IMG/VR virus record: IMGVR_UViG_3300030616_000017
Coordinates: 1 to 64,000 of that record
Strand: one strand, 5' to 3'
DNA: 64,000 nucleotides
From: a virus
The position numbers and the translations under genes are program-made. The notes below the pieces were generated by a model. It was not told where the DNA came from and made no database searches. It worked only from the letters and a program-made list of their open reading frames with translations. Numbering within the stretch: the first letter of the stretch is position 1; each line of letters starts with the position of its first letter. Of the stretch, positions 6,925 through 63,607 are shown piece after piece.

Positions 6925-7455
6925 CTATAACGTATTAGTATATTGATCTAGTAATTCTTGAAGGGCTTGTTTGGAAGTGGCTTGTTCTATTTGATCTTTT
7001 ACTGCCCACTTATCAGCATACGCCTCTTGTTTGAATTTTAGCATAGAAGCAGCAAAAATATTAAAATCGTCTATATGTGAGATAACAATAAAATCGTTTT
7101 CTCTAGTGCGCCAATGAAGAGGAAATATATCAAGAGCAGCACTCACTGCACTCATGTAACTTGTCATATTATTTTGAGCTTTTTCATCTGCCTGAATAGT
7201 TGAGCCTTCATACATAAAACCTTTTTCCAGCTTATTGATAAACTCCTCTTCTACTTTCTTTTTATATTCATCTTTTAAATCAGCTAAATCTTCTTCTTGA
7301 AGAATAAGAGTCTCTTGATTTAATTCTTCCCAAGTAGGCTTTACCCTTTTATCTTCCCATCTAATCTTTTCATATGCCTCTTGAGTATTAGCAGTTAATG
7401 AGCCTCTATATTTTGCTCCCGGTACAAGTCTATCAAGTGTAAGTGCTACATCCAT
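6925..7455 (-). CDS. DUF4376-like tail fibre accessory protein
   Basis: 176 residues. The C-terminal 80 residues (M-T-S-Y-M-S-A-V-S-A-A-L...L-H-W-R-T-R-E-N-D-F...K-F-K-Q-E-A-Y-A-D-K-W-A-V-K-D-Q-I) resemble DUF4376, a domain often encoded beside phage tail fibres and thought to assist fibre assembly. The centre is charged and helical. Its ATG overlaps the stop region of the giant fibre gene, so the two are translationally coupled, which supports a chaperone or capping role. The function is inferred from family and position. Confidence 0.65.
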   Translation of the reverse strand: MDVALTLDRLVPGAKYRGSLTANTQEAYEKIRWEDKRVKPTWEELNQETLILQEEDLADLKDEYKKKVEEEFINKLEKGFMYEGSTIQADEKAQNNMTSYMSAVSAALDIFPLHWRTRENDFIVISHIDDFNIFAASMLKFKQEAYADKWAVKDQIEQATSKQALQELLDQYTNTL

Positions 7456-42829: not shown

Positions 42830-43570
42830 TTACCCCCGTAGCAGCACAACTTTAGGATAGTTTTTCCACTTCTCTGTTACTTCTTCGTATAACTCTTCTG
42901 CTCTAGAAATAAGCTCTCCTCCATCTAAATCATCAGGAGAGGAGGTAGAGATTTGATTGCGTAAAGAACCAAAATAATGAAGAACATAGCTCTGGGCTAA
43001 TTTAATAACATCTTCTTCAAATCTAAAATCAACAGATGCCCAGTCTAAAGAGTATTTAGCCCATATAATAGACAATTGGCCTGTAATGTTGCTGTAGCCT
43101 GTGACTTTTCTGTTAGCATAATCAATTGTTTTCTTAAAGCCTTTATATGTATCTGTGATACTTTGTCTACGAGCTTTCTCTGCATAGTACACTTCACTAT
43201 ATCCATAGTCGTTTCCTGTATTCCACATATTAGCATACCCTCTGCTTTCCGCTTGTCTGATGTTGAGGTCGTTAATAAGAGGGTTACCTGTTTTTATCGT
43301 AGAATAATAAGGGCGGGTGTTAAGACGAAGATCTAGTACGCCCCATGTCTGCTCATCAGGAAAATCCACTGAAAATGTAGAATTGACTTGATAAGAGGCT
43401 TCCTCTTTCACGGGAAACCATTTGAAGTAAATGTTCTTTAGAGCGGGCAAAATGAGTAGATCTTCCACTTGATCTCTTGTTACTTCTAAATCGGTTTCCG
43501 ATACAATGGGATAACCCATGCAAGTCATTATTCTTTGATATATGTCATCGGGAAGTGTAAGTTGAGACAT
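42830..43570 (-). CDS. Possible neck/head completion protein
   Basis: 246 residues. Starts L-T-L-P-D-D-I-Y-Q-R-I-M-T-C-M-G-Y-P and contains L-I-L-P-A-L-K-N-I-Y-F-K-W-F-P, a typical start of phage head completion and adaptor proteins with short helical domains. The C-terminal half includes L-A-Q-S-Y-V-L-H-Y-F-G-S-L-R and L-I-S-R-A-E-E-L-Y-E-E-V. Position near the capsid genes supports a T4 gp13/gp14-type role, unproven. Confidence 0.45.
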   Translation of the reverse strand: MSQLTLPDDIYQRIMTCMGYPIVSETDLEVTRDQVEDLLILPALKNIYFKWFPVKEEASYQVNSTFSVDFPDEQTWGVLDLRLNTRPYYSTIKTGNPLINDLNIRQAESRGYANMWNTGNDYGYSEVYYAEKARRQSITDTYKGFKKTIDYANRKVTGYSNITGQLSIIWAKYSLDWASVDFRFEEDVIKLAQSYVLHYFGSLRNQISTSSPDDLDGGELISRAEELYEEVTEKWKNYPKVVLLRG

Positions 43571-44335: not shown

Positions 44336-46264
44336 TCATTTTTTGTGACGAGACGTACCTACTACTTGATTTTTCCATTTTGCAGTTTGAGAAAAATGTT
44401 CAACCCCATACTTACTTAAATTATTCTTCTTACGTGTTTCTTTAACTTCTTTGTTTTGCATTACCCATTCTGTTCCGTATTTTTTAAGATTAGTTTGTTT
44501 TCTTTTTTCTAACACACTTCTCCACTCTTCTTTTGTATACTTAGCATGATGTTTTTTTATTTTTTCACTACTGAGTTTATTTTTACACTTTTTATCTCCG
44601 CAAGTGTCCCAATAGAACATACCTGAACCTGAAAATGCTTTTTCCTTTCCACAATAAGGGCATATAGTAGACTCATTTTGAGACTTCAAGTATTTATTGT
44701 AGTAATCTTTGCGATCAATCTCGGGGTGAGCTATTGACAAGTGTTTTTTAAGACCTTTGAGAGACTTCATATTACGTTTACAAATTTCGCAATATTCGTA
44801 CCCTTCTTTACGGGGTTCTTCATGGTGTTCTGGCTTATGAAAATAATCTATTTGCTTTTCATTATTTTTTATATTCTCTTCTACTACTCCCCATCCAAAC
44901 ACCATATTACCGCAATCCCATATACGATCAAATCCATTATTTTTCATATTTTCCCATTCAGATAATTCAGAATTAAAATCATTAATCAGTTTATGTAATT
45001 TATGTTTTTGATATTTAATTCTACTCTCTAGATTCATATAATCTTTTGTGTAAAAATAGTTTGGGGAACTGGTATTTATATATGTAAACCCATTAGTTCT
45101 ATACACTTTTCCTGTGCTGTATCTCTTATCAGCATAAGATAATATATTTTTAGGATGATAATTTTTAACAAAATGATTTAATAATTTACTAAATCCCCCC
45201 ACTATTTGTACACTATGCAAAGAAGCAAAACGATGTATCTCATATTCATAAGTATTGTACCTTGAATGACCTAGAGCAAGCACCTGAACCAATCTACTGT
45301 TTTGATCTCGCAGACCATAAAAAATAGTGCTTCCTAAATAGGATTGTTGTAAATGATTTTGTTTGAGAAAATCTTGCGCTTCCTTTTTGTTTACTTTCTC
45401 ACAAATAGTTTTACGGGCATATATTCTTTCATTAAAAATACCTAACTTGCTTAATACAAGACTTTTCACTATATCCCAATATTTTACCATCTCTACATCT
45501 AATATATGTATAACATCAATATTAAAGTAGTCCTTAAAAAAATTATTTTTTTGTATATGATAACTTCTAGGGGTATTTCCCCTTATCTCTGAGTGCCAAT
45601 ATACCCCATCTATTTCTATACCAATGTTTTTATCAGGTATGTATACATCAAGCTCTTTATTTTTACCTCCATCTATATAAAACCTCTTGTTTTTTTCATA
45701 TTTTATAGAATATTCATCAAGAAGATCGGTTATATAAAGTTCTATACCGGAAATACCTTTATACTCTTTAGGAAAACACTTAGGGCATAACGGTACCCTT
45801 CTTCCTACAGAATTACCAGTAAAAATAGTTCCGCAGTGTTTACATTTCCATTGATATTCATATCTAACTCCCTTCCACTCTGTATCTATATTAAATAGTG
45901 GTTCAGAGTGCTTATCTTGCTTCATCTCAGTTTTAATACGAGAAATACTTCTATAATAATTTTTACAAGAGGCGGAGCATAATGTAGGAAACTTTTTAGA
46001 GGTTTTATTCCATGTTACTTTTTTACCGCAATATACGCAAGTAGGATGTTTATGGAGTTCATTTTCTATGCAATATATGCGAGCATTGAAATCTATGTCT
46101 TCAGGAAGAAAATTAGTGGCTTGCTCTACTTCTCTTTTAATTTGATTAAAGAAAGGATATTTAACAGGGTCTCGATCCTCATTTAATTTATTTAAGGTTT
46201 GGGTATTTCCTTCTTTAAATAAATGTTGATACATTCTACTCTTTAAATCTTTAGTATAAACCAC
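44336..46264 (-). CDS. Free-standing homing endonuclease-like protein
   Basis: 642 residues. Zinc-finger-like C-x-x-C pairs occur near 76-79 (C-V-Y-C), 136-139 (C-K-H-C), 156-159, 496-499 (C-E-I-C) and 538-541 (C-P-Y-C). A nuclease core lies near 200-225 (E-L-D-V-Y-I-P-D-K-N-I-G-I-E-I-D-G-V-Y-W-H-S-E), a PD-(D/E)xK/Vsr-type motif. The C-terminus has NUMOD-like DNA-binding repeats (L-K-K-Y-G-T-E-W-V-M-Q-N and L-S-K-Y-G-V-E-H-F-S-Q). Located next to the major capsid gene, a classic target region for mobile endonucleases, and framed by its own promoter motifs. Confidence 0.8.
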   Translation of the reverse strand: MVYTKDLKSRMYQHLFKEGNTQTLNKLNEDRDPVKYPFFNQIKREVEQATNFLPEDIDFNARIYCIENELHKHPTCVYCGKKVTWNKTSKKFPTLCSASCKNYYRSISRIKTEMKQDKHSEPLFNIDTEWKGVRYEYQWKCKHCGTIFTGNSVGRRVPLCPKCFPKEYKGISGIELYITDLLDEYSIKYEKNKRFYIDGGKNKELDVYIPDKNIGIEIDGVYWHSEIRGNTPRSYHIQKNNFFKDYFNIDVIHILDVEMVKYWDIVKSLVLSKLGIFNERIYARKTICEKVNKKEAQDFLKQNHLQQSYLGSTIFYGLRDQNSRLVQVLALGHSRYNTYEYEIHRFASLHSVQIVGGFSKLLNHFVKNYHPKNILSYADKRYSTGKVYRTNGFTYINTSSPNYFYTKDYMNLESRIKYQKHKLHKLINDFNSELSEWENMKNNGFDRIWDCGNMVFGWGVVEENIKNNEKQIDYFHKPEHHEEPRKEGYEYCEICKRNMKSLKGLKKHLSIAHPEIDRKDYYNKYLKSQNESTICPYCGKEKAFSGSGMFYWDTCGDKKCKNKLSSEKIKKHHAKYTKEEWRSVLEKRKQTNLKKYGTEWVMQNKEVKETRKKNNLSKYGVEHFSQTAKWKNQVVGTSRHKK

Positions 46265-50863: not shown

Positions 50864-52663
50864 TTAACCTTTTAGAGCTTTTACCCTATCTTTGCTGATA
50901 ACTTGTAACAGTTCTCTCTGTTGCCTGCTCATGTTGGACGAACAATAGAAATGATTATTAGCTAATACCCCTTCTTTAAGAGATTTTTTAGCTTGAAAAA
51001 GAGCTTCTGTGATTAAATCATGGAACTCTTCCTCGTTATAACTTTCTAAAATCTTATTAGTTTTATTTTTCTTAGTTTGTGCCCACAAACTTCCACTTGT
51101 CTCTTCCTCTTCTTCTCCGCCGCTCTCTCTTGCTTTAATAACTGCACCTACCCATTCGTCGATATCTTCGGAATTTAAGAATGAGAGTTTACTAAAGATT
51201 TTTTTGACTACATCTGGGGGAAGCGCTTCTCCTCTATCAAGCCCTAGAGCTTGACCTAAATTATCGATGGTGTCTTTAGCTAATCTTAAAGTATCGTTCT
51301 TAGTCTGTGTTCTATCTCTACTTTCTTCCACCATTGGATAATTCATAGAGAGTTCAAAATCTTCATCATAATCGAAAGCGCCTGTCATTGCAAATTGATT
51401 TCTAACAAGCTGTGTGAGCTCCTCAAGAATTGCAGATTGAAGTCGATAGACAGCTCTTGCAAAAGGCTTATGTTGTCGTAAAAGTGACTGCCCGCTAGTA
51501 CCAAAACTGGACCTATCTACTACCAGATAACCTTTAGGCACTCTTGTACCCATAATAAGATCATCTCGCAATAGCTCTATATCTGCTATATCGTCTAAGT
51601 TCATACGGCTTTCTATTTGGTCAACAGATATAAGTCCTGAGGGGGTCCAAATAGAGGAATTAGCCGCAAATTCTTCTTTGCCTGAAGGATCATTTCCTAA
51701 ATTATTAAATTCTTCTATCGCCTCTTGCACTTTTTCCCATTGAGATACTGCATCTACTTCATCTCCTGTCTCTACCTCGTAGTGACGAATAGGGAAGCTA
51801 GTGGCTCTTGCTAATGCCATGAGATTTTTCGCAGCTTGAAGTTGGCGGAACGGTGCTAAAGAATTAATAAGTAAGGGTCTACCAAAAGGCCAAAATTCAC
51901 TCTGTGTAGTAAAGGAGCGGAAATGTAGGAGGTTCCATGGCGGTAAATAAAGTTTAGCCCCTAAATCGAATCCAAAAAGATAAGACTTGAATGCTTGAGC
52001 TGTCATCTCTACATCTTCACTTTGCAGAATTTTAGAAAGAGCTACAAGACGGGAATCGCTCTGTAAAAATGTGCTGAATTTCTTCTTTTTATTCTGTTTA
52101 CTCATTTGAGAGGCTTTGAATTCAAACCTCTCTTTTACATCGTATACGTCAATAGGCACCAACTCTGTATAGCCTTCTTCTCTGTTGGAAGGGGCTACAA
52201 TAAAATCATCGCCATAAAGGGCTAACCCCCAAGCAATGTTACGAAGAATAGAAGAGTTAAGCCCTATTTTTTCAAAAAATTCTACAATATATTTTCTTAC
52301 TTTTCTGTCTTTAGCGTCTACTTTGATGATTTCTTTTTGGGAATCGTCTTGCACCACTTCGTCAGCGTACAATTCTACTGTCATGGAAATAATGCTATTA
52401 TTGTAATAAGCGTATTCTAAAGCCGCATACCTCTCCAATCTATTTTTTAGCGTTTCGGAATTTTCATACGTATCCGCTAAATACATAGTATAAAGCTTCT
52501 GCAGTTCATCAGGAAGCTTTATTGCAAGAGGTGATTTTTCTTTTCTATCTGGCTTCTTTTCGCCGGGTACTGGAATAGTTACGTCGCTATTTTTGTATGT
52601 TTGCGACGCTATTCCAAAAATATTTCTTAGACTATTTAAAAAACCCTTTTGTGATTTGGCCAT
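50864..52663 (-). CDS. Portal protein, gp20-like
   Basis: 599 residues (T4 gp20 has 524). Matches the family by an N-terminal Y-L-A-D-T-Y-E-N region, Y-A-A-L-E-Y-A-Y-Y-N-N-S-I-I-S-M-T-V-E-L-Y-A-D-E-V, W-G-L-A-L-Y-G-D-D-F-I, W-N-L-L-H-F-R, the wing/stem R-D-D-L-I-M-G-T-R-V-P-K-G-Y-L-V and the clip L-E-E-L-T-Q-L-V-R-N-Q-F. The C-terminus is helical and extended. It forms the dodecameric DNA gate. The order portal, protease, scaffold, then capsid is T4-like. Confidence 0.92.
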   Translation of the reverse strand: MAKSQKGFLNSLRNIFGIASQTYKNSDVTIPVPGEKKPDRKEKSPLAIKLPDELQKLYTMYLADTYENSETLKNRLERYAALEYAYYNNSIISMTVELYADEVVQDDSQKEIIKVDAKDRKVRKYIVEFFEKIGLNSSILRNIAWGLALYGDDFIVAPSNREEGYTELVPIDVYDVKERFEFKASQMSKQNKKKKFSTFLQSDSRLVALSKILQSEDVEMTAQAFKSYLFGFDLGAKLYLPPWNLLHFRSFTTQSEFWPFGRPLLINSLAPFRQLQAAKNLMALARATSFPIRHYEVETGDEVDAVSQWEKVQEAIEEFNNLGNDPSGKEEFAANSSIWTPSGLISVDQIESRMNLDDIADIELLRDDLIMGTRVPKGYLVVDRSSFGTSGQSLLRQHKPFARAVYRLQSAILEELTQLVRNQFAMTGAFDYDEDFELSMNYPMVEESRDRTQTKNDTLRLAKDTIDNLGQALGLDRGEALPPDVVKKIFSKLSFLNSEDIDEWVGAVIKARESGGEEEEETSGSLWAQTKKNKTNKILESYNEEEFHDLITEALFQAKKSLKEGVLANNHFYCSSNMSRQQRELLQVISKDRVKALKG

Positions 52664-54221: not shown

Positions 54222-54635
54222 TTATAATAGTTTTAAATTACCAGTAATTTTATTAATTTCTTCAGACTTTGCAGGGCCTATAGCAATACAAGTAGGTGTT
54301 TTTACACCATGAAATTCAGTTAAGCCGCTATCTACAATATAAGAACAAGGTAAATTTCTTTTTTCAGCTTCCCTGTATAATTCATTTAACTCTTCCTCTG
54401 AATTACAGCTTACTACTACTTTAGTAAAAAGACCCTCCATCCAATCTCTCATATCTTCTGTTATATTCTGAATAACGCAATAATACTGATTCTCAACCCC
54501 AGCATCGATATCCATTACAGTAATATTGTCAAAAAATACTTTCATAGAAGCATGTGCTGATTGAGCTGCAATTTTTCCTTTACGCATTTTAAGGTCTTTT
54601 CTTACTACTATAACTTGTTTAATTTCTTCACTCAT
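54222..54635 (-). CDS. Peptidyl-tRNA hydrolase 2 (Pth2)
   Basis: 137 residues, full length for Pth2. Conserved features: V-V-R-K-D-L-K-M-R-K-G-K-I-A-A-Q-S-A-H-A-S at 10-30, the strand D-S-G-L-T-E-F at 102-108, and the end G-V-K-T-P-T-C-I-A-I-G-P plus T-G-N-L-K-L-L. Pth2 frees peptidyl-tRNA stalled on aborted chains and is typical of archaea and eukaryotes, with scattered bacterial and phage copies. It could sustain translation late in infection. Confidence 0.88.
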   Translation of the reverse strand: MSEEIKQVIVVRKDLKMRKGKIAAQSAHASMKVFFDNITVMDIDAGVENQYYCVIQNITEDMRDWMEGLFTKVVVSCNSEEELNELYREAEKRNLPCSYIVDSGLTEFHGVKTPTCIAIGPAKSEEINKITGNLKLL

Positions 54636-54644
54636 ATTTTTTCC

Positions 54645-55070
54645 TTATATATAACATACTCGAATTTCTATGTTTGTATTTCTAAAAACTTCCTTTATGT
54701 CTTCCTCTGTAATCTCCCAGGGAAGCTGATCTAAACCTGAACCAATTTTAGGCATTACAATATGTTTAATTCCAGTATTCATTGCTATATATTTCATATC
54801 ATGTAAAGCATAAAAAAGATCCTGTTGTTTAGGCTTCCCAGATGATCTGGCCTTTGTAATAAGATTAAAAACTCCATGATGAAGAATACACGTAGGGTAT
54901 TTCCTTTCCTGTTCAGAGTATATGTCTTTCATCTCATAAAGATTAAACTTTTTTTTAATTGGTACAGCAATACCAGCCCCCATTCTACAATCAGATGCAA
55001 TACAATGAGCAACATGGTACTTATTAAAATCAACTGTAAAAATATCTCGCTTTTCTATGCTGTATATCAT
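54645..55070 (-). CDS. Macro domain ADP-ribose hydrolase (TARG1/DarG-like)
   Basis: 141 residues, a stand-alone macro domain. Motifs: A-H-C-I-A-S-D-C-R-M-G-A-G-I-A at 21-35 for ADP-ribose binding, a Lys-rich loop with S-G-K-P-K, and P-K-I-G-S-G-L-D-Q-L-P-W-E at 107-119 with the Asp (114) of the ALC1/TARG1/DarG branch. That branch removes ADP-ribose from protein carboxylates or from DNA bases. A counter-defence role against ADP-ribosyltransferase toxins such as DarT is attractive but inferred. Led by a class II motif. Confidence 0.82.
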   Translation of the reverse strand: MIYSIEKRDIFTVDFNKYHVAHCIASDCRMGAGIAVPIKKKFNLYEMKDIYSEQERKYPTCILHHGVFNLITKARSSGKPKQQDLFYALHDMKYIAMNTGIKHIVMPKIGSGLDQLPWEITEEDIKEVFRNTNIEIRVCYI

Positions 55071-55106: not shown

Positions 55107-55700
55107 TCATATATTTTCAAGTGATATATCTAAATGGTTTTTGCCTTCTAAGTAGTGTTTAGCATATAAATCTTCCGGTAAATTACTAAGGATGTAGGGT
55201 TTATGATCTTTTCCAATAAATTCTACTCGATCTAAGCCAAAGTGATTAGCAATTTTTCTCCAATTTTTTATCCATTTGGATTTATCCTTTCTTTCATGAT
55301 GCTGCACATATAAATCCATTCCTCCCAAATCAAACCCTAACACTTTAACTTCCTTATATCCCTCATACAGAGCTGCTGCTACCAATGTAGATCCAGATTC
55401 TGCATAAAAATGTTTCGGTAAAGTTAATTGTTGAACACCAGGTAATTCCCAAGATCTTTTATTCTTTCCATATATTGCCATTTTTAATCGGTATTTTCTT
55501 TTGTATTTTACTGCGATTTTTAACGCTACATAATCTCCTATCAATCTATCCAAGCGGGGTAATGAGCCATTTGCAAGCTCTAAAAAAGCAGAATTACAAG
55601 CCCATATTTCACCTTCCCATTCTTGAATAAACTTAACATAATTTTTTCGGGATACGCCGTTTCCTAAAATAAGTACTTTTTCATGATTGATTTGTTGCAT
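55107..55700 (-). CDS. MptE/DUF115-like sugar-cassette protein, copy 2
   Basis: 197 residues. Starts with a Rossmann-like L-I-L-G-N-G-V-S-R at 10-18, then G-E-I-W-A-C-N-S, R-L-I-G-D, and S-G-S-T-L-V-A-A-A-L-Y-E-G-Y-K-E-V-K-V-L-G-F-D-L-G. This is the layout of MptE/DUF115-type and GT42-like proteins, where G-N-G-x-S and S-G...A...G-x-x-x-I-x-L-x-G-x-D recur. It is a clear paralogue of the gene at 57118 and overlaps the CMP-sialate synthetase gene, so it may transfer or handle a nonulosonic acid. Confidence 0.6.
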   Translation of the reverse strand: MQQINHEKVLILGNGVSRKNYVKFIQEWEGEIWACNSAFLELANGSLPRLDRLIGDYVALKIAVKYKRKYRLKMAIYGKNKRSWELPGVQQLTLPKHFYAESGSTLVAAALYEGYKEVKVLGFDLGGMDLYVQHHERKDKSKWIKNWRKIANHFGLDRVEFIGKDHKPYILSNLPEDLYAKHYLEGKNHLDISLENI

Positions 55701-56400
55701 AACCTTTTTCCTGTAATAATGTTTCTAGTATGTTCCAATCCTCTTTTTCATCTATTTCATAAGAAGTATACGGTGGTGTAATATATAAAGAAACAGGGGG
55801 AGTTAAGCGACATTTATTGTCTATATAATTTTGAATAGAGTTTATGTATATACCTCCATTTTCTACAAATAAGCCATTATGAAAGTTCTGTCTTCTTTCT
55901 CTTTTTATAGGATCATAATTAACTGGAACTCCAACTTGTTCTATTCTAGATTTATATGTCCAGAAAAACCTTTCACTTTGACTTACACTTAACAAGGATT
56001 TACAATCAGTTTCTTCTACATATTGTGAAATAGCTCCATCAACAAAAAAAGAATTTACCCACGGAGAAGTGGCCTGAACAAGAACTATGTGATCTTCTGG
56101 CTCTCTTTTAAACACACCTTTATGTATCCAGTCCATTACCGCCGATTCAGTAGTAGCTTCGTCTGTAGCTGTCTCAATAGAACGCCAATGTATTCTACCT
56201 TTTGAAAAATAAAAAGAAACAAAAGCATCTGCATAGTTCATACTATCTAAAAGTACGTGAAACTCTTCTATATAATGTGATTTTTGAAGAGCATTACATA
56301 CCCACCAAAATAAAGGCTTTCCAAGAAAATCTTTAATGTTTTTATTCGGTATTCCCTTGGATCCGCTTCTTAGAGGAACAATCCCTATATATCTACTCAT
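55681..56400 (-). CDS. neuA: CMP-sialic acid synthetase-like (NeuA family)
   Basis: 239 residues from the ATG at 56400 (GGAG nine bases upstream; it overlaps the stop of the upstream gene). Conserved motifs: I-V-P-L-R-S-G-S-K-G-I-P-N-K-N at 6-20, an E-x-A-T-T-E-S-A region, L-V-Q-A-T-S-P-W near 113-120, and N-G-G-I-Y-I-N. These are the nucleotide and sugar sites of CMP-nonulosonate cytidylyltransferases, which activate sialic, legionaminic or pseudaminic acids with CTP. Which sugar is used cannot be read from sequence. Confidence 0.85.
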   Translation of the reverse strand: MSRYIGIVPLRSGSKGIPNKNIKDFLGKPLFWWVCNALQKSHYIEEFHVLLDSMNYADAFVSFYFSKGRIHWRSIETATDEATTESAVMDWIHKGVFKREPEDHIVLVQATSPWVNSFFVDGAISQYVEETDCKSLLSVSQSERFFWTYKSRIEQVGVPVNYDPIKRERRQNFHNGLFVENGGIYINSIQNYIDNKCRLTPPVSLYITPPYTSYEIDEKEDWNILETLLQEKGYATNQS

Positions 56401-57118
56401 AGCTTTTTTCTCCATTTTTCGTAAATACAAAAGTTGCGTAATGAATTTTTTCTCTAATGTTAGAAATATATAAAGGTTGTAAAGAAACAGAAAGTAGGGC
56501 TTTCCAAAATTCATCTAGCATAAACGAAGTAGCACGCATATGCTTAACTTTATATTCATCTATATTCTCAATAGGCTTATAAGCTTCTTCCCCATTATCG
56601 TAGCGTATTTGAATCACTCCTACTCCGTTTACTTTCAAAGCTTGAGCTATTATTTGTAACACTTCCATAGCGTATTCTTTCGAGGGAAAATGCTGAAAAA
56701 CAGCAGTAGAAAGAAAAAGGTCAACAGGATCGTGAATCGATTCTAGAACAAATTGCGGGTTCTCTTCTATTAAAATAGGAGTAAATGTAATGTTGTTTTC
56801 TTCCGCAACCGCTTGTGACGCTTCTAAACTACGGAGAGAAATATCAATACCGATATATTTTTTTATGTAAGGAATTAAAGCATTGATATTAGAACCGCCA
56901 CCAACTCCCCACTCAGCAATTATCATTGGCCCCATTTTTCGATCTAAAAATGAGAAACCCTGTTTTATTTGCGGTAAATTCCTTTTTCCTAGACTTTCCC
57001 ACTTAGCAAGGTCTTTATAAATTCCTTTTCCTCGAATATGAGAAATGGCGTCTTGATGATCTAAATCAGAACTGTTTACCCACACATCTTTTACTTTATT
57101 AAAATCTTTTTGGTCCAT
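56393..57118 (-). CDS. SAM-dependent methyltransferase
   Basis: 241 residues from the ATG at 57118, overlapping the preceding stop (TAATG) with GGAGG seven bases upstream. Motif I: I-A-E-W-G-V-G-G-G-S-N near 66-76; motif II: Y-I-G-I-D-I-S near 87-93; then D-L-F-L-S-T-A-V-F-Q-H and G-V-G-V-I-Q-I-R. A class I methyltransferase, probably modifying a sugar of the cassette product. Confidence 0.75.
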   Translation of the reverse strand: MDQKDFNKVKDVWVNSSDLDHQDAISHIRGKGIYKDLAKWESLGKRNLPQIKQGFSFLDRKMGPMIIAEWGVGGGSNINALIPYIKKYIGIDISLRSLEASQAVAEENNITFTPILIEENPQFVLESIHDPVDLFLSTAVFQHFPSKEYAMEVLQIIAQALKVNGVGVIQIRYDNGEEAYKPIENIDEYKVKHMRATSFMLDEFWKALLSVSLQPLYISNIREKIHYATFVFTKNGEKSYE

Positions 57119-57738
57119 TATACAACCTCCAAGTGATTTATACCCTGCGAATACAATTGCCAATATTTATTATCTGGCTCATCACTCAATAAATATTTTT
57201 TATGATCTTTTCCTATGAATTCAATCCTATCAAGCCCATAACTTTTGGCTATCTTGCGCCAATGCTGAATCCAATTAGTTTTATTCTGAGTATGAAGATC
57301 ATCCACGTAAATATCATAACCCCCCAAATCAAACCCAGCTAAATAAATCTTTTCATACCCCTCTACTAATGCTTTAACGGTAAGCGTGCTTCCTGAATCT
57401 CTAACATACATTGCAGGAATATTATCTAATTTTTCAACATGAGGTAAAGCTATATTTTGAGGTCGTTTAGAAAAAATTCTATAGGCAAACTTGTATTTAT
57501 CAATAGCAGCAGAAGCTTCTTTTAATGCATCGTGATCACCTGTTAGTACATTAAGCCTTGGAATGTCCTTAGTAATAAGTTCTTTGAACACGTTATTGCA
57601 GCCCCATATCTCTCCCGGCCAATGCTGTACAAATGGTTTATGCCGCAGTCTTGATACCCCGTTTCCAAGAATCAATACAGATTTTATATTTGGATTTTTC
57701 CTATAGGTGTCTAGGATTCGTTTACATTGTTCTGTCAT
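57118..57738 (-). CDS. MptE/DUF115-like sugar-cassette protein, copy 1
   Basis: 206 residues. Starts like its paralogue (V-L-I-L-G-N-G-V-S-R at 21-30, G-E-I-W-G-C-N-N, L-N-V-L-T-G-D-H-D), then D-S-G-S-T-L-T-V-K-A-L-V-E-G-Y-E-K-I-Y-L-A-G-F-D-L and W-I-Q-H-W-R-K-I-A. Two diverged copies in the same cassette suggest related steps on different substrates. The pattern also recalls GT42 sialyltransferases (I-A-G-N-G-P-S). Catalytic role unproven. Confidence 0.6.
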   Translation of the reverse strand: MTEQCKRILDTYRKNPNIKSVLILGNGVSRLRHKPFVQHWPGEIWGCNNVFKELITKDIPRLNVLTGDHDALKEASAAIDKYKFAYRIFSKRPQNIALPHVEKLDNIPAMYVRDSGSTLTVKALVEGYEKIYLAGFDLGGYDIYVDDLHTQNKTNWIQHWRKIAKSYGLDRIEFIGKDHKKYLLSDEPDNKYWQLYSQGINHLEVV

Positions 57739-57740
57739 AA

Positions 57741-58331
57741 CTAGTTGTACCCTTTCTTTTTAAATACTAGCATTTTTAAAAAACTACTTTCTATAAACCC
57801 CCACTGATCATCCTCAATTCTACTAAACCACCAATCTCTATTTCGAATAGTTTGATGTAAGTTTCCTATATCCTTAAACTCAGATTCTTTTTTTAGAAGA
57901 TTCGTCCAAGTCATGTTTATTTCTTTTCCATATGCAATTTTAAGAAATAAATATTTTTTACTAACCCTTTTGATTTCTTTGATAGCTTGTTCCGCGTCTT
58001 CAGGAATTAGATGTTCTAATACATCACACGAAAAGACAGCGTCGAATTTATTATCCTCAAAAGGTAATTCTACAGCAGTTGCAACTTGACAAGTTGAAAG
58101 CCCTATGGTTTTAGATTCCTGAATAGCCGTAGTAGAAACATCAACACCATATCCCTCTATTCCTTTTTCAATGAATTTTTTAACCGCCATGCCTTGTGAA
58201 CAGCCAATTTCTAATAGAGAAGAAAACTTATAGTTATCGGTTATATAGTCCACATATTTTATACCGTGATTTTTTAAATCTTTATGATAGCCTTTCCTGT
58301 ATAAAAAATCATACACTTTATAATAATCCAT
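57741..58331 (-). CDS. SAM-dependent methyltransferase
   Basis: 196 residues. Motif I L-L-E-I-G-C-S-Q-G at 39-47, a following G-Y-G-V-D-V-S, motif with A-V-E-L-P-F-E-D-N-K-F-D-A-V-F-S-C-D-V-L-E-H-L near 87-109. Class I fold of the UbiE/Methyltransf_11 kind. The substrate is likely a sugar of the cassette; evidence for that is context only. Confidence 0.8.
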   Translation of the reverse strand: MDYYKVYDFLYRKGYHKDLKNHGIKYVDYITDNYKFSSLLEIGCSQGMAVKKFIEKGIEGYGVDVSTTAIQESKTIGLSTCQVATAVELPFEDNKFDAVFSCDVLEHLIPEDAEQAIKEIKRVSKKYLFLKIAYGKEINMTWTNLLKKESEFKDIGNLHQTIRNRDWWFSRIEDDQWGFIESSFLKMLVFKKKGYN

Positions 58332-58994
58332 TCAATTCTCCTTTAAATGCCCAAGTCTTTGTTCTAAACTATTGATTGTTTCAGAAGATGCTTTCACTTT
58401 TCCTGAAGATATTAACTCATAAATATACCGATGATTATTATCAGAATCATGAACTGTCTGAGGTGTTTTTCTGTTTCTTTGCATTTCCGCAGCTTCCTCA
58501 ATTATAGATTCTGGCAAATACCCCGGATAATATTTTTGTTTATTATTAGAATAAAAATCCACGCCTGTAATGTGAAACTCTTTTGGCGAAGCAGAAACAA
58601 TCATATCTAAAATAATAGCACCCATTAAAGCCCCTCTAATTTCCAATACTCGGGGACTTTGAACTATTACTTCAACAGGAACACCATTATCTATAATTGA
58701 ATCATATAAAGGAGAGTTAAAACTTTTACAATATATATGCTTTAACCCCCGGGCTTTAAGTTTGTCCATATCTATTTCTTGAATATGCCTTTGAAATTGA
58801 GAATTAAAAAATAGAACTGAGTACTTACTTCCATAATCTCTATTAAAATCGGGATCATCTAAGAAAAAAACTGAACCGTTAGTTCTTACAACTATGTCAA
58901 AAGAATCAATCCATTCCCCTAACCCCTTATTTCTAATGCAAGGAGAGGGACCTACAAATATAACTTTTTTATTGGTCATATATTCTATATTCAC
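58332..58994 (-). CDS. Sialyltransferase-like protein (GT29/GT42 type), copy 2
   Basis: 220 residues with a GTG start, supported by AGAGG five bases upstream. The pattern I-F-V-G-P-S-P-C-I near 11-19, G-L-G-E-W-I-D-S-F-D-I-V-V-R-T-N-G near 24-40 is the L-sialylmotif-like layout of GT29 enzymes. Later A-L-M-G-A-I-I-L-D...F-H-I-T-G-V-D-F-Y matches the S-motif-like region, and H-D-S-D-N-N-H supplies a conserved His as in motif VS. It probably transfers the CMP-activated acid; the acceptor is unknown. Confidence 0.65.
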   Translation of the reverse strand: MNIEYMTNKKVIFVGPSPCIRNKGLGEWIDSFDIVVRTNGSVFFLDDPDFNRDYGSKYSVLFFNSQFQRHIQEIDMDKLKARGLKHIYCKSFNSPLYDSIIDNGVPVEVIVQSPRVLEIRGALMGAIILDMIVSASPKEFHITGVDFYSNNKQKYYPGYLPESIIEEAAEMQRNRKTPQTVHDSDNNHRYIYELISSGKVKASSETINSLEQRLGHLKEN

Positions 58995-59012
58995 TTAAAC
59001 CTCTTTTTTAGT

Positions 59013-60110
59013 TTAATTGCTTTCACAATATCTATTAAACTCATCAAAATTATTTTTGATAATATGAAATAAGTTTTCTTTAGCTTCTTCAATTTCCTTT
59101 TGAATTTTTCTCTTGTGCTGTAACATATATAAAGCTTTTTCTACTAGAGTTTCTTGTATTTTATCTTCATCATCCAGATCAATCATCCAGTCAAGTTTAT
59201 TTATATCTTCCAGAAAAAACTTAATTTTATTATGCACATGCAAAGACAGAACAGGAATTCCTAATCCAAAAGGAATCATCTGAGAGTGACCTCTACCTGC
59301 AATTACTAAATCGAAAGATTTATAGAAGTTAAAAGAATCTTCTACTGAGTAACGTCTTATATCAATAATAGTATGTGGAATATTTAATTCAACTAAATAA
59401 TCTAGAATTTCAACATCAAAATTGGGAGCATGAAGAACAACAGTAATTGAATACCCTTTATCTACTAATTCCTCAATCCCTTTAGCAATAGGTAAAACTT
59501 TTTGGCGAGGTGTTTCTCCGTATCTCAAAACTTTTCGATCAAAAGGAATATTTATTGCAATCTTTTTTGTTTTTCCGGGGTTTGTAGGAACATTCCACAG
59601 ATGATTAATAATTGTGGTAGTACAAGGTACAAAAGAAATATCAGTGTCTAAATCTGAAGGAAAATGAGGTAATAGTTTCTCAATATCCCCTTTATGTCTA
59701 AGACTGAAGTGAATAGTTTTTTGAGATAATAATTCTACAGAAGATAGAAATAGTTCACTTGGTTCTTGCCCCCAAAAATAATTAAACCCTACAGTAAAAA
59801 CAATAATAGGAATTTGAATACTTTCTAAGACCTCATTGCTTACTTTCCAATGCCAACCAGAAACTTCATTAGAGGATAATCCATGCGCCATAAACAGACC
59901 TCCTCCCCCCACCAGAATTACATCAACATCTTCTAAAATAGTTTTAGCATTTTCATCTGCCCATTCTCTTATATTCATAGGTTTCCATGAAATAGAGTGC
60001 TTACAAAACTTTTCAAACGTTTTTCTAACAGCATGTGTTAAGACATAGTCTCCGTAATTGCCTCTTTTTTCTGAGTAACTTAGATGTAGAATTCTTACAG
60101 GCTCACTCAT
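59013..60110 (-). CDS. Polysaccharide pyruvyl transferase-like protein
   Basis: 365 residues. Starts with I-L-H-L-S-Y-S-E-K-R-G-N-Y-G-D, the early glycine loop of the CsaB/WcaK family, then V-D-V-I-L-V-G-G-G-G-L-F near 61-72, I-A-I-N-I-P-F-D-R, and a late F-D-L-V-I-A-G-R-G-H-S-Q-M-I-P-F-G-L-G-I-P-V-L-S, the typical double Rossmann layout. Family members add pyruvate ketals to sugars. In this cassette it may decorate the glycan; a distinct transferase activity is possible. Confidence 0.75.
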   Translation of the reverse strand: MSEPVRILHLSYSEKRGNYGDYVLTHAVRKTFEKFCKHSISWKPMNIREWADENAKTILEDVDVILVGGGGLFMAHGLSSNEVSGWHWKVSNEVLESIQIPIIVFTVGFNYFWGQEPSELFLSSVELLSQKTIHFSLRHKGDIEKLLPHFPSDLDTDISFVPCTTTIINHLWNVPTNPGKTKKIAINIPFDRKVLRYGETPRQKVLPIAKGIEELVDKGYSITVVLHAPNFDVEILDYLVELNIPHTIIDIRRYSVEDSFNFYKSFDLVIAGRGHSQMIPFGLGIPVLSLHVHNKIKFFLEDINKLDWMIDLDDEDKIQETLVEKALYMLQHKRKIQKEIEEAKENLFHIIKNNFDEFNRYCESN

Positions 60111-60768
60111 ACGCTTCCTTATGTGATATTATCATATCTAGTTTTTCTAAAAAACGAGCATCACAACTTATATAATGTGTTTCAATTATTTCTTTTAAGA
60201 CTACAGCATTCCAATACCTCGAATGGGCTAAGTGGCCGTCTTTATGTGATTCATCTTCAAACGCTTTCATAGTTGGATGAATATACCCTTCCACATATCC
60301 ACTCCAATCTTTATTGTACACATTAGCCCGATTTATGTACATATCCATTCCAGTAAGAAAGAGGTGCTTAGGCTTTAATTTTGTTAAATAGTGGACAACA
60401 GCAACTCCTGAATACGTAAACCCTCTTTTCATTTTACTTTCCACTTCTTTGAAAGCTCGAGGAATAGCTGTATGAGGAATATCTGTATATTGCGGGTAAT
60501 TTCTTTTGAAAAGAAAATGTTTTACAAAAGGGTATTTTTTAAGGTCTGGTTTTAATTCTCTTACAAATGGATTAGTTAAAAAATGAAGTGTGTCTTTTTT
60601 TCCGTAATCTTTTTGATATTCTTTATCTTTTTGTATAAAGAGAGAGCCATTAAACTTCACCACAACATCATGTGAATCAATAAACTCTCCGAGGCGTTTC
60701 CCTTTAATAATATCACTGCTGCCAACAACAATAATTGATTTTCCTTCTACAATTTCCTTGCAATCCAT
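60103..60768 (-). CDS. Sialyltransferase-like protein (GT29/GT42 type), copy 1
   Basis: 221 residues. S-I-I-V-V-G-S-S-D-I-I-K at 10-21 and G-E-F-I-D-S-H-D-V-V-V-K-F-N-G at 26-40 match the sialylmotif-L-like pattern; F-T-Y-S-G-V-A-V-V-H-Y...L-F-L-T-G-M-D-M-Y matches the S region; G-H-L-A-H-S-R-Y supplies a late His. Paralogue of the gene at 58332. Together with NeuA and NeuB it suggests real use of a CMP-sugar in infection. Confidence 0.65.
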   Translation of the reverse strand: MDCKEIVEGKSIIVVGSSDIIKGKRLGEFIDSHDVVVKFNGSLFIQKDKEYQKDYGKKDTLHFLTNPFVRELKPDLKKYPFVKHFLFKRNYPQYTDIPHTAIPRAFKEVESKMKRGFTYSGVAVVHYLTKLKPKHLFLTGMDMYINRANVYNKDWSGYVEGYIHPTMKAFEDESHKDGHLAHSRYWNAVVLKEIIETHYISCDARFLEKLDMIISHKEAYE

Positions 60769-62039
60769 GATGTATCCTTAAAGGTTGCTTCAACCTTAAT
60801 GTTTCTATCTACAGCTTTTCGAACTCCGGGATGATGTTTACTTAAATAATCATGACCCCCTATAAAGCCGCCTCTCTTGACTTTCGGTAGCCACATTTTA
60901 ATATCCTGCTCTACGAATTCTTCTGCGTGATTACCATCAATATATACAAAGTCTAAACTCCCCTCTTTGAAATCTTTTACAGCTTCTTGAGATTTTGTTT
61001 TTATTTTAGTCACGTTAGGATATTGTGAAAGTACAAAGATATCAAATTGTTTTTCCACCTCAACCATATTATATTTAGACGGATCGGAGGCCCCGTCGTA
61101 ATTACTATAATTAGATTGCCAAGGGTCAACACAAGTTAAATGTTTAACTCTTTTAGCAAAAACTTCGGATGAATTTCCGGCAAAAGAACCAATTTCCACC
61201 ATAGTTACTTTTTCGATAGGTTTTACTCGGCTGATGTAATCACATAAATCTTCTAACCCCGAAATAGCATTTTTTGCTTTTCTTATACTAATTCTGTTCA
61301 TAATGTTCCACCATTTTTCTTCTAACTTAGCAAAATCTACCTTATCGCGGTAGTCTCTTCTTGTAATAGGATCTTGCCAAGGTTTAATAGCTACGTAATG
61401 TAGAATCTTAGCTTTATCAACTGTTTTCTTAAACTTATCACTTTTATACATTCTTTTTTCTACATTATACTCTTTAGGTAGAATTTGTGTTTTTTCTCTG
61501 AAATACTTATTTAAGCATTCTTGATCAGGCAACTTATATCCCTGTTTAATATCTTCGACTAATGCGTGATACGTTTTCTCATTTAACCATTGTTTGCCTA
61601 TAACAAATACTCCGCTATTGAAAGTACTAACAAGTCTATCACAAGCCTCTCTGTAGCTTCTCACAGCTAAAAACTCAGTATGATCTCTAAACAATAAACT
61701 TATTCTATCAAGCACTATCACATCTAAATCAATAAAAATAGCTTGTTGATACCCAAGCTTATACAAAGAAAAAATATCTAGCTTGTAATACGTATTGCGA
61801 AGATGAGGTACGGTTATTTCAAAATTAGTACCTTCATACATCTTATAATTCGGTTGAATAAATGTAAGCTTTGGATAGTATTGACGACAAAACTCTCTAT
61901 CTTTCTCTGTCATTCCTATTTCAAGAAGAACAAAATCAAGAGAAAAATCGGGATGCACTTGAAGCAGAGATTTAACAAATCCTACATAACCAGGAATAAA
62001 ATTCGGCGTAATTAGGGAGCATAAACACTTTTTTAACAT
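60747..62039 (-). CDS. GT8-like glycosyltransferase fused to a methyltransferase
   Basis: 430 residues. N-terminal 245 residues are GT8-like (T-P-N-F-I-P-G-Y-V-G-F-V-K-S-L near 11-25, the D-x-D signature F-I-D-L-D-V at 102-107, F-N-S-G-V-F, and H-Y-V-A-I-K-P-W). From about 250 a class I methyltransferase follows (M-V-E-I-G-S-F-A-G-N-S near 275-285, D-F-V-Y-I-D-G-N-H-A near 352-361, G-G-F-I-G-G-H-D-Y). One protein likely transfers and methylates a sugar. It overlaps the NeuB-like gene by 7 nt. Confidence 0.8.
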   Translation of the reverse strand: MLKKCLCSLITPNFIPGYVGFVKSLLQVHPDFSLDFVLLEIGMTEKDREFCRQYYPKLTFIQPNYKMYEGTNFEITVPHLRNTYYKLDIFSLYKLGYQQAIFIDLDVIVLDRISLLFRDHTEFLAVRSYREACDRLVSTFNSGVFVIGKQWLNEKTYHALVEDIKQGYKLPDQECLNKYFREKTQILPKEYNVEKRMYKSDKFKKTVDKAKILHYVAIKPWQDPITRRDYRDKVDFAKLEEKWWNIMNRISIRKAKNAISGLEDLCDYISRVKPIEKVTMVEIGSFAGNSSEVFAKRVKHLTCVDPWQSNYSNYDGASDPSKYNMVEVEKQFDIFVLSQYPNVTKIKTKSQEAVKDFKEGSLDFVYIDGNHAEEFVEQDIKMWLPKVKRGGFIGGHDYLSKHHPGVRKAVDRNIKVEATFKDTSWIARKL

Positions 62040-62875
62040 CCACGTAAATCCTCTCTCTTTTTAAGTTCGCTGGGAAACACTTCTCTGGGCTCATACCCTG
62101 TATATGCGGTACTTAAATCTCTGATGCCTTTGACTAACTTAAAAAATCCCGAAGGCTCTATTGAGGATTTTTGATCACTCCCCCACATAGCGTGGTCCAT
62201 TGTAATGTGTGCTTCTACCCATTTAGCTCCTAGGTAAATAGAAGCAATGGTTGGTATAATTCCATAATAGTGATTGCTGTAGCCTGCACAAATATGAGGC
62301 CACTTATCCTTTATCCACTCAATATAGCGCAAGTTTAATTCTTCTACGGGAGTAGGATAGGCAGAGTTGGTGTGCATAAGCACGTGAGGTTGTAGCAAAC
62401 TGACTGCTTCTGCAACTTCTTGTTCATTACTCATACCAGAGGACATAATCCTAAATCTGAAATTCTCTTTACAAAACTGTAAAAGTTCTTTGTTGGTAAT
62501 ATGAGCGGAAGGAATTTTGACAATTTGTGTCAGTTCGGTCATAAATTGAGCGCTCTCTATGTCCCAAACAGAAGCAAAAAAGCCAATGTTGTTCTCTTTT
62601 GCTTTTTTACTGAGATACAAGTACTCATCTCTATCAAACTCAATGTCTTTTTTGTATTGAAGGTATGTGGTGGGATCTTTTCGCCAAGGAACAATTTTCT
62701 CTTGGTTTTTCTTCTCAGGAGGAACTGCTTTATCTGGGTCTCTTTTTTGGAACTTTACATAGTCCGCGCCAGATAAAGCAGCTACTTGAATTAACTTTAC
62801 AGCTGTATCGACATCTTTTCCTTTTTCCTCTGTTACCGCATTGATACCTATTTCTGCAATAATATTTACTTTCAT
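62033..62875 (-). CDS. neuB: N-acetylneuraminate synthase-like (NeuB family)
   Basis: 280 residues. The TIM-barrel motifs are clear: I-A-E-I-G-I-N-A at 6-13, G-A-D-Y-V-K-F-Q at 36-43, K-I-P-S-A-H-I-T-N near 120-128, M-S-S-G-M-S near 144-149, T-N-S-A-Y-P-T-P near 169-176, G-Y-S-N-H near 198-202 and G-A-K-W-V-E-A-H near 216-223. It condenses phosphoenolpyruvate with an N-acetyl sugar. The usual C-terminal antifreeze-like (SAF) domain is absent, so it is about 60 residues short; activity without it is uncertain. Confidence 0.85.
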   Translation of the reverse strand: MKVNIIAEIGINAVTEEKGKDVDTAVKLIQVAALSGADYVKFQKRDPDKAVPPEKKNQEKIVPWRKDPTTYLQYKKDIEFDRDEYLYLSKKAKENNIGFFASVWDIESAQFMTELTQIVKIPSAHITNKELLQFCKENFRFRIMSSGMSNEQEVAEAVSLLQPHVLMHTNSAYPTPVEELNLRYIEWIKDKWPHICAGYSNHYYGIIPTIASIYLGAKWVEAHITMDHAMWGSDQKSSIEPSGFFKLVKGIRDLSTAYTGYEPREVFPSELKKREDLRGC

Positions 62876-62959: not shown

Positions 62960-63607
62960 TCAAGGAGATAAATATCGCCTGAGATCCTGCTGAATATCTT
63001 TAAGACGAATTTGTATCCATTGAGTAGTATATCCCATTTTTTTCCCAATAGCGTTATAAGTATAACCGCCCAGCCTCATCTCTAGCATAGAGCTATCTTC
63101 TACAGAAAGACTCTTCTTGAAAGAATCAATAGTAATCTTTAAATCTATATCACCCCCGAAACTTTCGTAGTTCTTAGAAGCGCAAATAGAATTATCTATT
63201 CTTTGATCTATTCCTGCTAAAGAGTCGTTAAAGGAATGAGTTACAAGAGCTGCTTCAGGGAGAGGGGTATGTCGGGGTCTTTTTTTTCTTCCGTCCACTT
63301 CAAAAACGGAAAATCTTTCTTTCGTGGCATATCTTTTTATTTGATTGCGAAGAATGTAGTTAAAAATTGCCCAAATCTTCCAAGTAGAAGAATTAGTGAT
63401 TTTATTAAGTTGCACGTTATTTACTGCTTTTTGCATAGAAAAATAGGCATCTGATACAAAATCCTGTTTATCTTCCCTGGTAAACCCATATATTTTGCCT
63501 ATTTTAAAGGCAGTATGGGTTATAAAAGGTTTGTATTTTTCATACAAAGCATATAACATGTCATTATTTCCATTTTTTGCAGCTACTACCATTTGGTAAT
63601 CGTTCAT
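62960..63607 (-). CDS. Phage sigma factor (sigma-70/ECF type)
   Basis: 215 residues. Region 2 is visible at about 5-95: M-V-V-A-A-K-N-G-N-N-D-M-L-Y-A-L-Y-E-K-Y, then D-F-V-S-D-A-Y-F-S-M-Q-K-A-V, and W-K-I-W-A-I-F-N-Y-I. Region 4 covers about 160-212 with a helix-turn-helix (L-E-M-R-L-G-G-Y-T-Y-N-A-I-G-K-K-M-G-Y). It binds core RNA polymerase and is a good candidate to recognise the ACTAATATAATATA late motif, one copy of which precedes it. This is a gp55-like role by inference. Confidence 0.8.
   Translation of the reverse strand: MNDYQMVVAAKNGNNDMLYALYEKYKPFITHTAFKIGKIYGFTREDKQDFVSDAYFSMQKAVNNVQLNKITNSSTWKIWAIFNYILRNQIKRYATKERFSVFEVDGRKKRPRHTPLPEAALVTHSFNDSLAGIDQRIDNSICASKNYESFGGDIDLKITIDSFKKSLSVEDSSMLEMRLGGYTYNAIGKKMGYTTQWIQIRLKDIQQDLRRYLSP

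Follow-up and report, generated by a model that had tools for sequence, protein, structure and literature searches.

Virion glycans have been described in mycobacteriophages (Che8 and relatives; Freeman et al. 2023, cited in PMC11256854 and PMC12619734), and flagellin receives nonulosonic acids (NulO) in the cytosol through Maf (PMC13317340) or FlmG (PMC7591256). In Streptomyces, the walls contain Kdn teichulosonic acid (PMC11481543); the locus SCO4873-SCO4882 carries a NeuA fused to a HAD phosphatase, and its product is a Kdn polymer with methyl groups (PMC13011467). Reads of neuB and neuA were reported in viromes by Roux et al. in 2013 (PMC3877843), with neuB abundant and unexplained in clean viromes; that study counted reads and offered no gene context, domain analysis or mechanism. 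Our search of the open-access literature, outside which most subscription papers lie, found no description of phage NeuB cassettes, and bacterial viruses are seldom regarded as sialylated.

The window, which is the whole 64,000-nucleotide stretch of DNA analysed here, covers the opening 64 kb of a virus record of 147,158 bp in full, and its source is an uncultured tailed phage. Ten minus-strand ORFs fill positions 55107-62875 (Table 1). Most of them overlap, the intergenic distances run from -46 to +18 bases, and the region contains no plus-strand ORF that reaches 100 aa. The start of NeuA was corrected to the ATG at 56400, and that of the second methyltransferase was moved to the ATG at 57118, where a GGAGG motif (RBS) is present. 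A sequence-only reading had proposed this gene inventory, a compact operon and a position between sigma factor and portal genes; the Pfam matches, the tight spacing and the phrog_351 and phrog_213 matches bear these points out. The ten-gene operon probably makes an activated sialic-acid-like sugar that is attached to something inside the infected cell.

Table 1. Features of the glycan cassette and its neighbours in the window.
Coordinates	Strand	Feature	Length and start	Evidence
50864..52663	-	Portal protein (neighbour)		phrog_213 4.6e-14
55107..55700	-	GT42-fold protein b	197 aa	Fold inferred from similarity to protein a
55681..56400	-	NeuA-type CMP-nonulosonate synthetase	239 aa, from ATG 56400	Pfam CTP_transf_3 5.9e-18
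56393..57118	-	Second methyltransferase	241 aa, from ATG 57118	Pfam Methyltransf_12 3.5e-7
57118..57738	-	GT42-fold protein a	206 aa	No credible Pfam match; fold search
57741..58331	-	Methyltransferase (Methyltransf_11)	196 aa	Pfam 1.2e-17
58332..58994	-	GT29-type sialyltransferase-like protein 2	220 aa, GTG start	Pfam 26.3 bits, cut-off 23; 6e-6
59013..60110	-	Polysaccharide pyruvyltransferase-like protein	365 aa	Pfam PS_pyruv_trans 58.3 bits, cut-off 25.3; 1.5e-15
60103..60768	-	GT29-type sialyltransferase-like protein 1	221 aa	Pfam GT29 36.2 bits, cut-off 23; 6e-9
60747..62039	-	GT8 glycosyltransferase fused to class I methyltransferase (Methyltransf_24)	430 aa	Pfam 2e-20, 6e-19
62033..62875	-	NeuB-type synthase, SAF-less, TIM barrel only	280 aa	Pfam NeuB 2.3e-58
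62960..63607	-	RNA polymerase sigma factor (neighbour)		phrog_351 1.4e-11; Sigma70_r2 4.8e-4, under Pfam cut-off

The cassette has phage-encoded glycosyltransferases and a presumed cytosolic decoration of virion proteins in common with the mycobacteriophages. However, a nonulosonate synthase, a CMP-sugar synthetase and sialyltransferase-fold enzymes are all missing from the mycobacteriophage systems as described in PMC11256854 and PMC12619734, and their acceptor was demonstrated, whereas that of the cassette is predicted. NeuB and NeuA-type enzymes for CMP-NulO are shared with flagellin glycosylation, in which a structural protein receives the sugar in the cytoplasm and is assembled afterwards. 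Transfer to flagellin is carried out by Maf or FlmG, whereas the window encodes GT29- and GT42-fold proteins that are too short for an added acceptor-binding TPR domain. The Streptomyces locus likewise has a SAF-less NeuB family member and NeuA, but its product is a bacterial wall polymer, and a Kdn role of the window enzyme is putative.

In the PDB, the best match of the window NeuB was 6ncs (290 aa), followed by 8h2c, 1vli and 1xuu. The PEP, metal and catalytic residues of the TIM barrel were retained: E8, K41, Q43, K120, S123 and S145 correspond to NmNeuB positions 25/53/55/129/132/154, and Y173, S200, H202, E221, H223 and D234 to positions 186/213/215/234/236/247. Among 83 viral NeuBs, nearly all likewise keep the catalytic positions. 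At position 134, NmNeuB, PseI and SpsE have Glu, whereas Leu, Lys or His predominate in these viral proteins. The window NeuB ends after the barrel and lacks the C-terminal SAF/antifreeze domain with Arg314; all 83 viral NeuBs are shorter than 300 aa and therefore none has SAF. In Neu5Ac synthase, Arg314 of SAF contacts ManNAc and holds its N-acetyl group, and the R314A variant is inactive (PMC6795526). The window protein scored under the NCBIfam equivalog cut-offs for NnaB (TIGR03569; best match), with 176.3 against 399.65 bits, and for PseI, with 119.4 against 340.25.

The window NeuA matched PpNeuA (2.6e-27) and the CMP-Neu5Ac synthetase 1qwj (1.2e-19) in the PDB. Its cytidylyltransferase domain carries NulO-type motifs (SGSKGIP...KNI, QATSP and KRxRRQ) that align with both proteins, and its score was below the PseF equivalog cut-off (76.4 versus 205.7). 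Together, the catalytic residues, the NeuA motifs and two fold searches lend good support to synthesis and transfer of a CMP-nonulosonate-type sugar.

Near NeuB, a HAD phosphatase of about 100 aa was present in 71 of 80 viral loci (within 3 kb in 63), often overlapping the NeuB stop, and a KdsC-like phosphatase lay within 3 kb in 28 of 41 bacterial loci. Immediately upstream of NeuB, the Streptomyces relatives carry NeuA fused to HAD; judged by gene order, the L108-type loci putatively correspond to SCO4882. The focal sub-clade is without the phosphatase, which was absent from the focal phage and from the two relatives with the most similar NeuBs. Because SAF and Arg314 are absent and HAD- or KdsC-type phosphatases lie near NeuB, the viral NeuB family probably uses a phosphorylated, possibly non-acetylated (Kdn-like) aldose. 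For the window enzyme, such a precursor appears more likely than ManNAc, since this SAF-less NeuB is without the N-acetyl-binding residue and its relatives pair with phosphatases. A phosphorylated precursor other than ManNAc would explain the missing epimerase: the sequence-only reading had seen no epimerase or precursor gene in the window, and single-protein queries of the whole 147,158-bp record also found no NeuC, aminotransferase, dehydratase or sugar phosphatase. The term "sialic acid" is too specific in view of the absent SAF/Arg314 and the phosphatase-paired relatives.

A general rule that SAF-less means Kdn was rejected. In bona fide Bacteroidota loci over the Kdn-9-P phosphatase cut-off (NF058599), the NeuBs mostly contain SAF (e.g. 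L170-L175), and therefore the absence of SAF alone does not mean Kdn. NeuA-HAD fusions accompany a SAF-less NeuB in L176 and L178, which are over this cut-off, and in L180 and L181, which are just below. A Kdn-9-P synthase of the BT1714-like kind would be expected beside such a phosphatase, and the focal genome yielded none. KDN-9-phosphatase scores of 144-163 bits beside bacterial SAF-less NeuBs were non-discriminating as support, because about half of the sampled Bacteroidota genomes have a gene near this level.

The GT29-like window proteins are candidate sialyltransferases: both exceed the curated GT29 score for sialylmotif L, and the fold, modelled for protein 2, and a conserved His agree with this family. 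One His is invariant in GT29 alignment A4, which includes GT29-like protein 1, and H182 of GT29-like protein 2 was invariant across 21 sequences. With the AF2 model of protein 2 (pLDDT 90.9, pTM 0.90), all 29 Foldseek PDB matches at E<=0.001 were mammalian sialyltransferases. Two further proteins had been read as MptE/DUF115-like; neither matched PF01973 in Pfam, and a GT42 fold fits them better. Sequence searches gave no Pfam family match for GT42-fold protein a or b and no PDB match for the pair, so their placement comes from the fold search. The top ten PDB matches of the protein a model (pLDDT 84.6, pTM 0.85) were Campylobacter jejuni CstI/CstII (prob 0.99-1.00, TM about 0.5). Proteins a and b are 48% identical and share a His preceding a helix. 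A different protein, in sister phage L011, matches MptE-like/DUF115 (PF01973) below the cut-off. With this reassignment, the cassette would hold four candidate CMP-sugar transferases, two GT29-like and two GT42-fold. They have the fold and the conserved His in common with CstI/CstII (GT42) and mammalian ST3Gal/ST8Sia (GT29), but sequence identity is below 20% and donor and acceptor use is predicted. Among the remaining enzymes, the GT8 and methyltransferase halves of the fusion are two separate adjacent genes in L011, and the best NCBIfam match of the Methyltransf_11 protein was a pseudaminic-acid-associated methylase, far under the cut-off.

When NeuB alignment A1 was used as the query, relatives of the window NeuB were recovered on at least 431 IMG/VR contigs. 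IMG/VR searches with the single NeuB protein, the single GT42-like protein or the GT42-like pair gave no matches, nor did a whole-cassette DNA search among 50,697 phage records. The closest relatives of the window NeuB fall into a clade that is almost entirely viral, with 66 viral rows against 1 MAG row and a support of 98. Transferases and NeuB/NeuA co-occurred when tested in both directions. Sister phages keep the gene set at different genome positions, and three diverged phages have retained the core genes. In G004, a sister phage, 14 bp separate NeuB from the gene that comes after it, a homologue of window gene 42830-43570; beyond this gene come homologues of further window genes and of the tail module. 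A DegT aminotransferase was found within 3 kb of NeuB in 12 of the 80 viral loci, and therefore the sugar may differ among phages. This cassette type is widespread yet almost undescribed among phages. Through the window and its relatives, the abundance of neuB that was noticed in clean viromes in 2013 (PMC3877843) gains a genomic context. These loci suggest that anionic sugars are produced by many large phages, in which they could act as a shield for the virion or change its adsorption. They also define a SAF-less NeuB type whose substrate is directly testable.

We put at about even the chance that the cassette is a cytosolic glycosylation system in which a Kdn-like nonulosonate is made, CMP-activated and moved onto a phage structural protein. 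As the conserved catalytic residues suggest, the SAF-less NeuB would join PEP to an aldose from the host, which is probably not ManNAc but a hexose 6-phosphate, for example Man-6-P. The product would be a Kdn-like nonulosonate, probably as the 9-phosphate. Dephosphorylation would fall to a host phosphatase in the focal phage and to the small HAD phosphatase beside NeuB in most related phages. NeuA would then activate the nonulosonate with CTP. GT8 may put a hexose on the acceptor, the two GT29-fold and two GT42-fold transferases may add the CMP-sugar, and the chain may be capped with methyl and pyruvyl groups. In the least certain step, the sugar would be placed on a structural protein of the phage in the cytosol, either ahead of assembly or in the course of it. 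Assembly of the glycan in the cytosol is favoured, because a polytopic membrane protein (at least 7 predicted spans; flippase, polymerase or ligase type) was found within 8 kb of NeuB in none of the 80 viral loci but in 18 of the 41 bacterial loci. By a simple hydropathy count, the cassette proteins have no predicted membrane spans except one weak segment, and the soluble glycosyltransferases have no adjoining export genes. The enzymes of the cassette are also soluble candidates for glycan synthesis. Virion protein glycosylation is our best guess for the target. More tentatively, the virus-specific SAF-less NeuB clade, the mini HAD phosphatase and the GT29-/GT42-fold transferases may constitute a widespread phage system that coats virion proteins in the cytosol with nonulosonates from phosphorylated, non-N-acetylated sugars.

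The main rival is modification of the host envelope, in which the CMP-sugar would be added at the cytosolic face to host lipooligosaccharide or another lipid-linked glycan, masking the phage receptor and leading to superinfection exclusion and less adsorption to debris. We consider it possible but doubtful. CstI and CstII, the closest folds to the window GT42-like protein, act on lipooligosaccharide in C. jejuni, and since CstII-type enzymes can sialylate it at the inner membrane, the absence of a flippase is compatible with a host-envelope acceptor. In addition, bacterial locus L111 groups a SAF-less NeuB, a NeuA and a GT29-like protein, and several glycosyltransferases with capping enzymes suit a surface oligosaccharide. 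These points are countered by the missing polytopic proteins in viral loci, the near absence of membrane spans in the cassette and its retention across sister phages of diverged gene content. Phage DNA had been suggested as a target alongside virion glycoproteins and host surface glycans. The glycosyltransferases would then decorate a modified base; the focal genome also encodes QueC, GTP cyclohydrolase I, a QueE-like radical SAM protein and a Vut_1/YhhQ-type transporter, and phage glycosyltransferases often modify DNA (PMC12619734). DNA is nevertheless very unlikely, because sister phage records, which may be incomplete, keep cassette genes but lack QueC, found only in the focal record. Sialyltransferase folds are, to our knowledge, unlike known DNA glucosyltransferases, and we know of no precedent for a CMP-sugar route on DNA.

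The product itself might be ordinary Neu5Ac, Leg or Pse, made from host-supplied UDP-GlcNAc-derived precursors. NeuB and NeuA families are common to these pathways and NnaB is the best NCBIfam match, but its 176 bits fall far from the cut-off of 399.65, SAF/Arg314 is absent, Glu134 is replaced and NeuC-like genes occur in just 2 of the 80 viral loci, making this product improbable. The idea that the cassette is a polysaccharide island captured from bacteria not long ago, carried as passing cargo and of no function to the phage, has hardly any likelihood. Glycan islands do move between genomes, and the core genes occupy different places in sister phages; however, the viral NeuBs fall in their nearly virus-only clade, three diverged phages keep the core genes, and the reading frames are intact and tightly overlapping.

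The record is 147,158 bp long, with the window as its first 64 kb, and belongs to a contractile-tailed phage (matches to tail sheath, 1e-33; portal, 5e-14; major head protein, 3e-11). Spacing within the ten-ORF cassette ranges from -46 to +18 bases, and the plus strand has no competing ORF of 100 aa. A sigma factor flanks the operon on one side and a series of macro-domain, PTH2, SbcD-like and portal genes on the other; the sequence-only reading had placed it between sigma factor and portal. Pfam supported every gene assignment of that reading except MptE/DUF115, for which neither of the two proteins gave a credible match.

Coordinates of the cassette and of neighboring or related features (window positions unless a record or locus is named; L002 and L003 are stretches of the focal record, G000, beyond the window)
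Feature	Position	Strand	Remark
Cassette	55107-62875	minus	
NeuA	start 56400	minus	corrected start
Second methyltransferase	start 57118	minus	corrected start
GT42-like protein	57118-57738	minus	
GT29-like protein	58332-58994	minus	
Macro-domain protein	54645-55070		immediately downstream of cassette
PTH2-type peptidyl-tRNA hydrolase	54222-54635		immediately downstream of cassette
HNH/homing-endonuclease-like ORF	44336-46264		phrog_3339, 5e-97; adjoins major head protein gene
Major head protein gene	46417-47826		
Gene with homologue in G004	42830-43570		
Giant ORF	7455-17996		3,513 aa
7-deazaguanine-type genes	G000 66824-72236 (L002:2824-8236)	minus	QueC, GTP cyclohydrolase I, QueE-like radical SAM protein, Vut_1/YhhQ-type transporter
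285-aa protein	L002:4068-4925		DpdA-like by eye; no Pfam match
Xanthine/uracil permease	G000 90616-91827 (L003:6616-7827)		full-length; Pfam 2e-75
18 tRNA genes	L003:7991-16057		
Huge phage LR756508 island	L007:7136-16074		GDP-fucose-type genes, sulfotransferase-like proteins, SAF-less NeuB, four GT29-like proteins
Nucleotide-sugar dehydrogenase, sister phage cassette	L011:14930-16663		apparently intein-interrupted; N and C parts in two neighboring ORFs, possibly a split intein

The known catalytic positions of N. meningitidis NeuB (NmNeuB) are kept in the window NeuB and in nearly all of 83 viral relatives. At position 134 (Glu in NmNeuB), the window NeuB has His and the relatives mostly Leu, Lys or His; Phe112 is replaced by Trp, and Asn74 is unconserved. 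Every viral member has at most 299 aa and therefore lacks SAF, the C-terminal domain of standard NeuB. Part of the list of catalytic positions comes from PMC6795526, where SAF residue Arg314 touches the ManNAc N-acetyl group and the R314A mutant is inactive. The closest PDB match of the window NeuB is a 290-aa synthase (6ncs), and its scores fall more than 200 bits short of the NnaB and PseI equivalog cut-offs. With its catalytic residues kept and SAF with Arg314 missing, this NeuB is probably an active enzyme, though not a standard Neu5Ac synthase.

An alignment of the window NeuB with those of LR756508 (44% identity) and marine virus AG-345-L05 (38%) retrieved relatives on at least 431 IMG/VR contigs and hundreds from bacteria; the best-scoring 80 of each were kept, near-duplicates included, and locus counts are descriptive rather than independent events. 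In a 138-row tree, built by a quick method and with long terminal branches, the viral NeuBs formed a nearly exclusive clade (66 viral and one MAG, support 98), with LR756508 inside and AG-345-L05 outside. The window NeuB clustered with those of viral loci L010 and L016 (support 99). L010, L012 and L011 appear to be one phage.

Of the 80 viral loci, 71 have a HAD protein of ~100 aa no more than ~11 kb from NeuB (63 have it within 3 kb), and the two genes frequently overlap by a few bases at the NeuB stop. The DxDxT, TARG, GKP and IDDK motifs of this HAD protein are conserved (58 aligned members), and in NCBIfam it comes nearest to the capsule phosphatase EcbF-BcbF, with a score well under cut-off. 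This phosphatase was not found in the focal phage, L010-L012 or L016. Among the 41 bacterial loci that could be analysed, 28 have a KdsC-like phosphatase within 3 kb of NeuB, and such a domain is fused to NeuA in Actinomarina, Blastopirellula and Streptomyces. Since phosphatases adjoin viral and bacterial NeuBs or are fused to NeuA, these results suggest that an intermediate is phosphorylated. Man-6-P is the substrate of Kdn-9-P synthases (PMC6200933), and a Kdn teichulosonic acid is a component of Streptomyces walls (PMC11481543), its gene region being SCO4873-SCO4882 (PMC13011467). A simple rule tying SAF-less NeuB to Kdn was contradicted by Bacteroidota loci with an over-cut-off Kdn-9-P phosphatase, in which NeuB either contains or lacks SAF. 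On balance, we favor a phosphorylated aldose as NeuB substrate with moderate confidence and propose Kdn or a Kdn-like sugar as the product more tentatively.

For the transferase folds (TRANSFERASES), the model of the GT29-like protein at 58332-58994 (pLDDT 90.9, pTM 0.90) matched only mammalian sialyltransferases among its 29 PDB matches at E<=0.001 (TM ~0.5), and one His is invariant across 21 relatives. The top ten PDB matches of the model of the GT42-like protein at 57118-57738 (pLDDT 84.6) were CstI and CstII. An alignment of eight domains, including one incomplete one, shows a His immediately before a helix in seven of them; this His may be the counterpart of CstII His188. Viral GT29 relatives occur in giant viruses, herpesviruses and annotations of uncultured Caudovirales, so phage GT29 has precedents at the level of annotation. 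In the reciprocal test, NeuB or NeuA was present at 34 of 79 viral GT29-like loci; the twelve at the head of the list, the best-scoring apart from two that were set aside, all had NeuB.

We classified the cassette among phage glycosylation systems. Its gene content, the kept catalytic residues, the lack of SAF, the phosphatase linkage, the folds of two proteins, the viral clade and the lack of export genes near NeuB are results of computation; all substrates, the reaction order, the acceptor and the biological role are inferred. Reads of neuB and neuA were listed in clean viromes in 2013 and left unexplained (PMC3877843); a description of the cassette was not found in the openly accessible literature. 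An exported Wzx/Wzy-type polymer is unlikely, because proteins with at least seven predicted spans occur within 8 kb of NeuB at none of the 80 viral loci but at 18 of 41 bacterial loci (simple hydropathy count); by the same count, cassette proteins each have at most one weak hydrophobic segment. DNA had been named as a possible target, and this role is disfavored because QueC is confined to the focal record and was not found in sister phage records. The core gene set also occurs in two sister phages, elsewhere in their genomes; G001 shares replication genes with the focal phage, and G004 structural and tail genes. In G004, NeuB ends ~14 bp upstream of the homologue of a window gene, and the NeuA-type gene is located elsewhere. 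Mycobacteriophages provide a precedent for virion glycosylation (PMC11256854, PMC12619734), and flagellin systems provide one for NulO transfer in the cytosol (PMC13317340, PMC7591256); capping of host lipooligosaccharide by the cassette sugar is a possible alternative. The giant ORF of the window possibly encodes a giant fiber or tail protein and is a candidate glycan acceptor.
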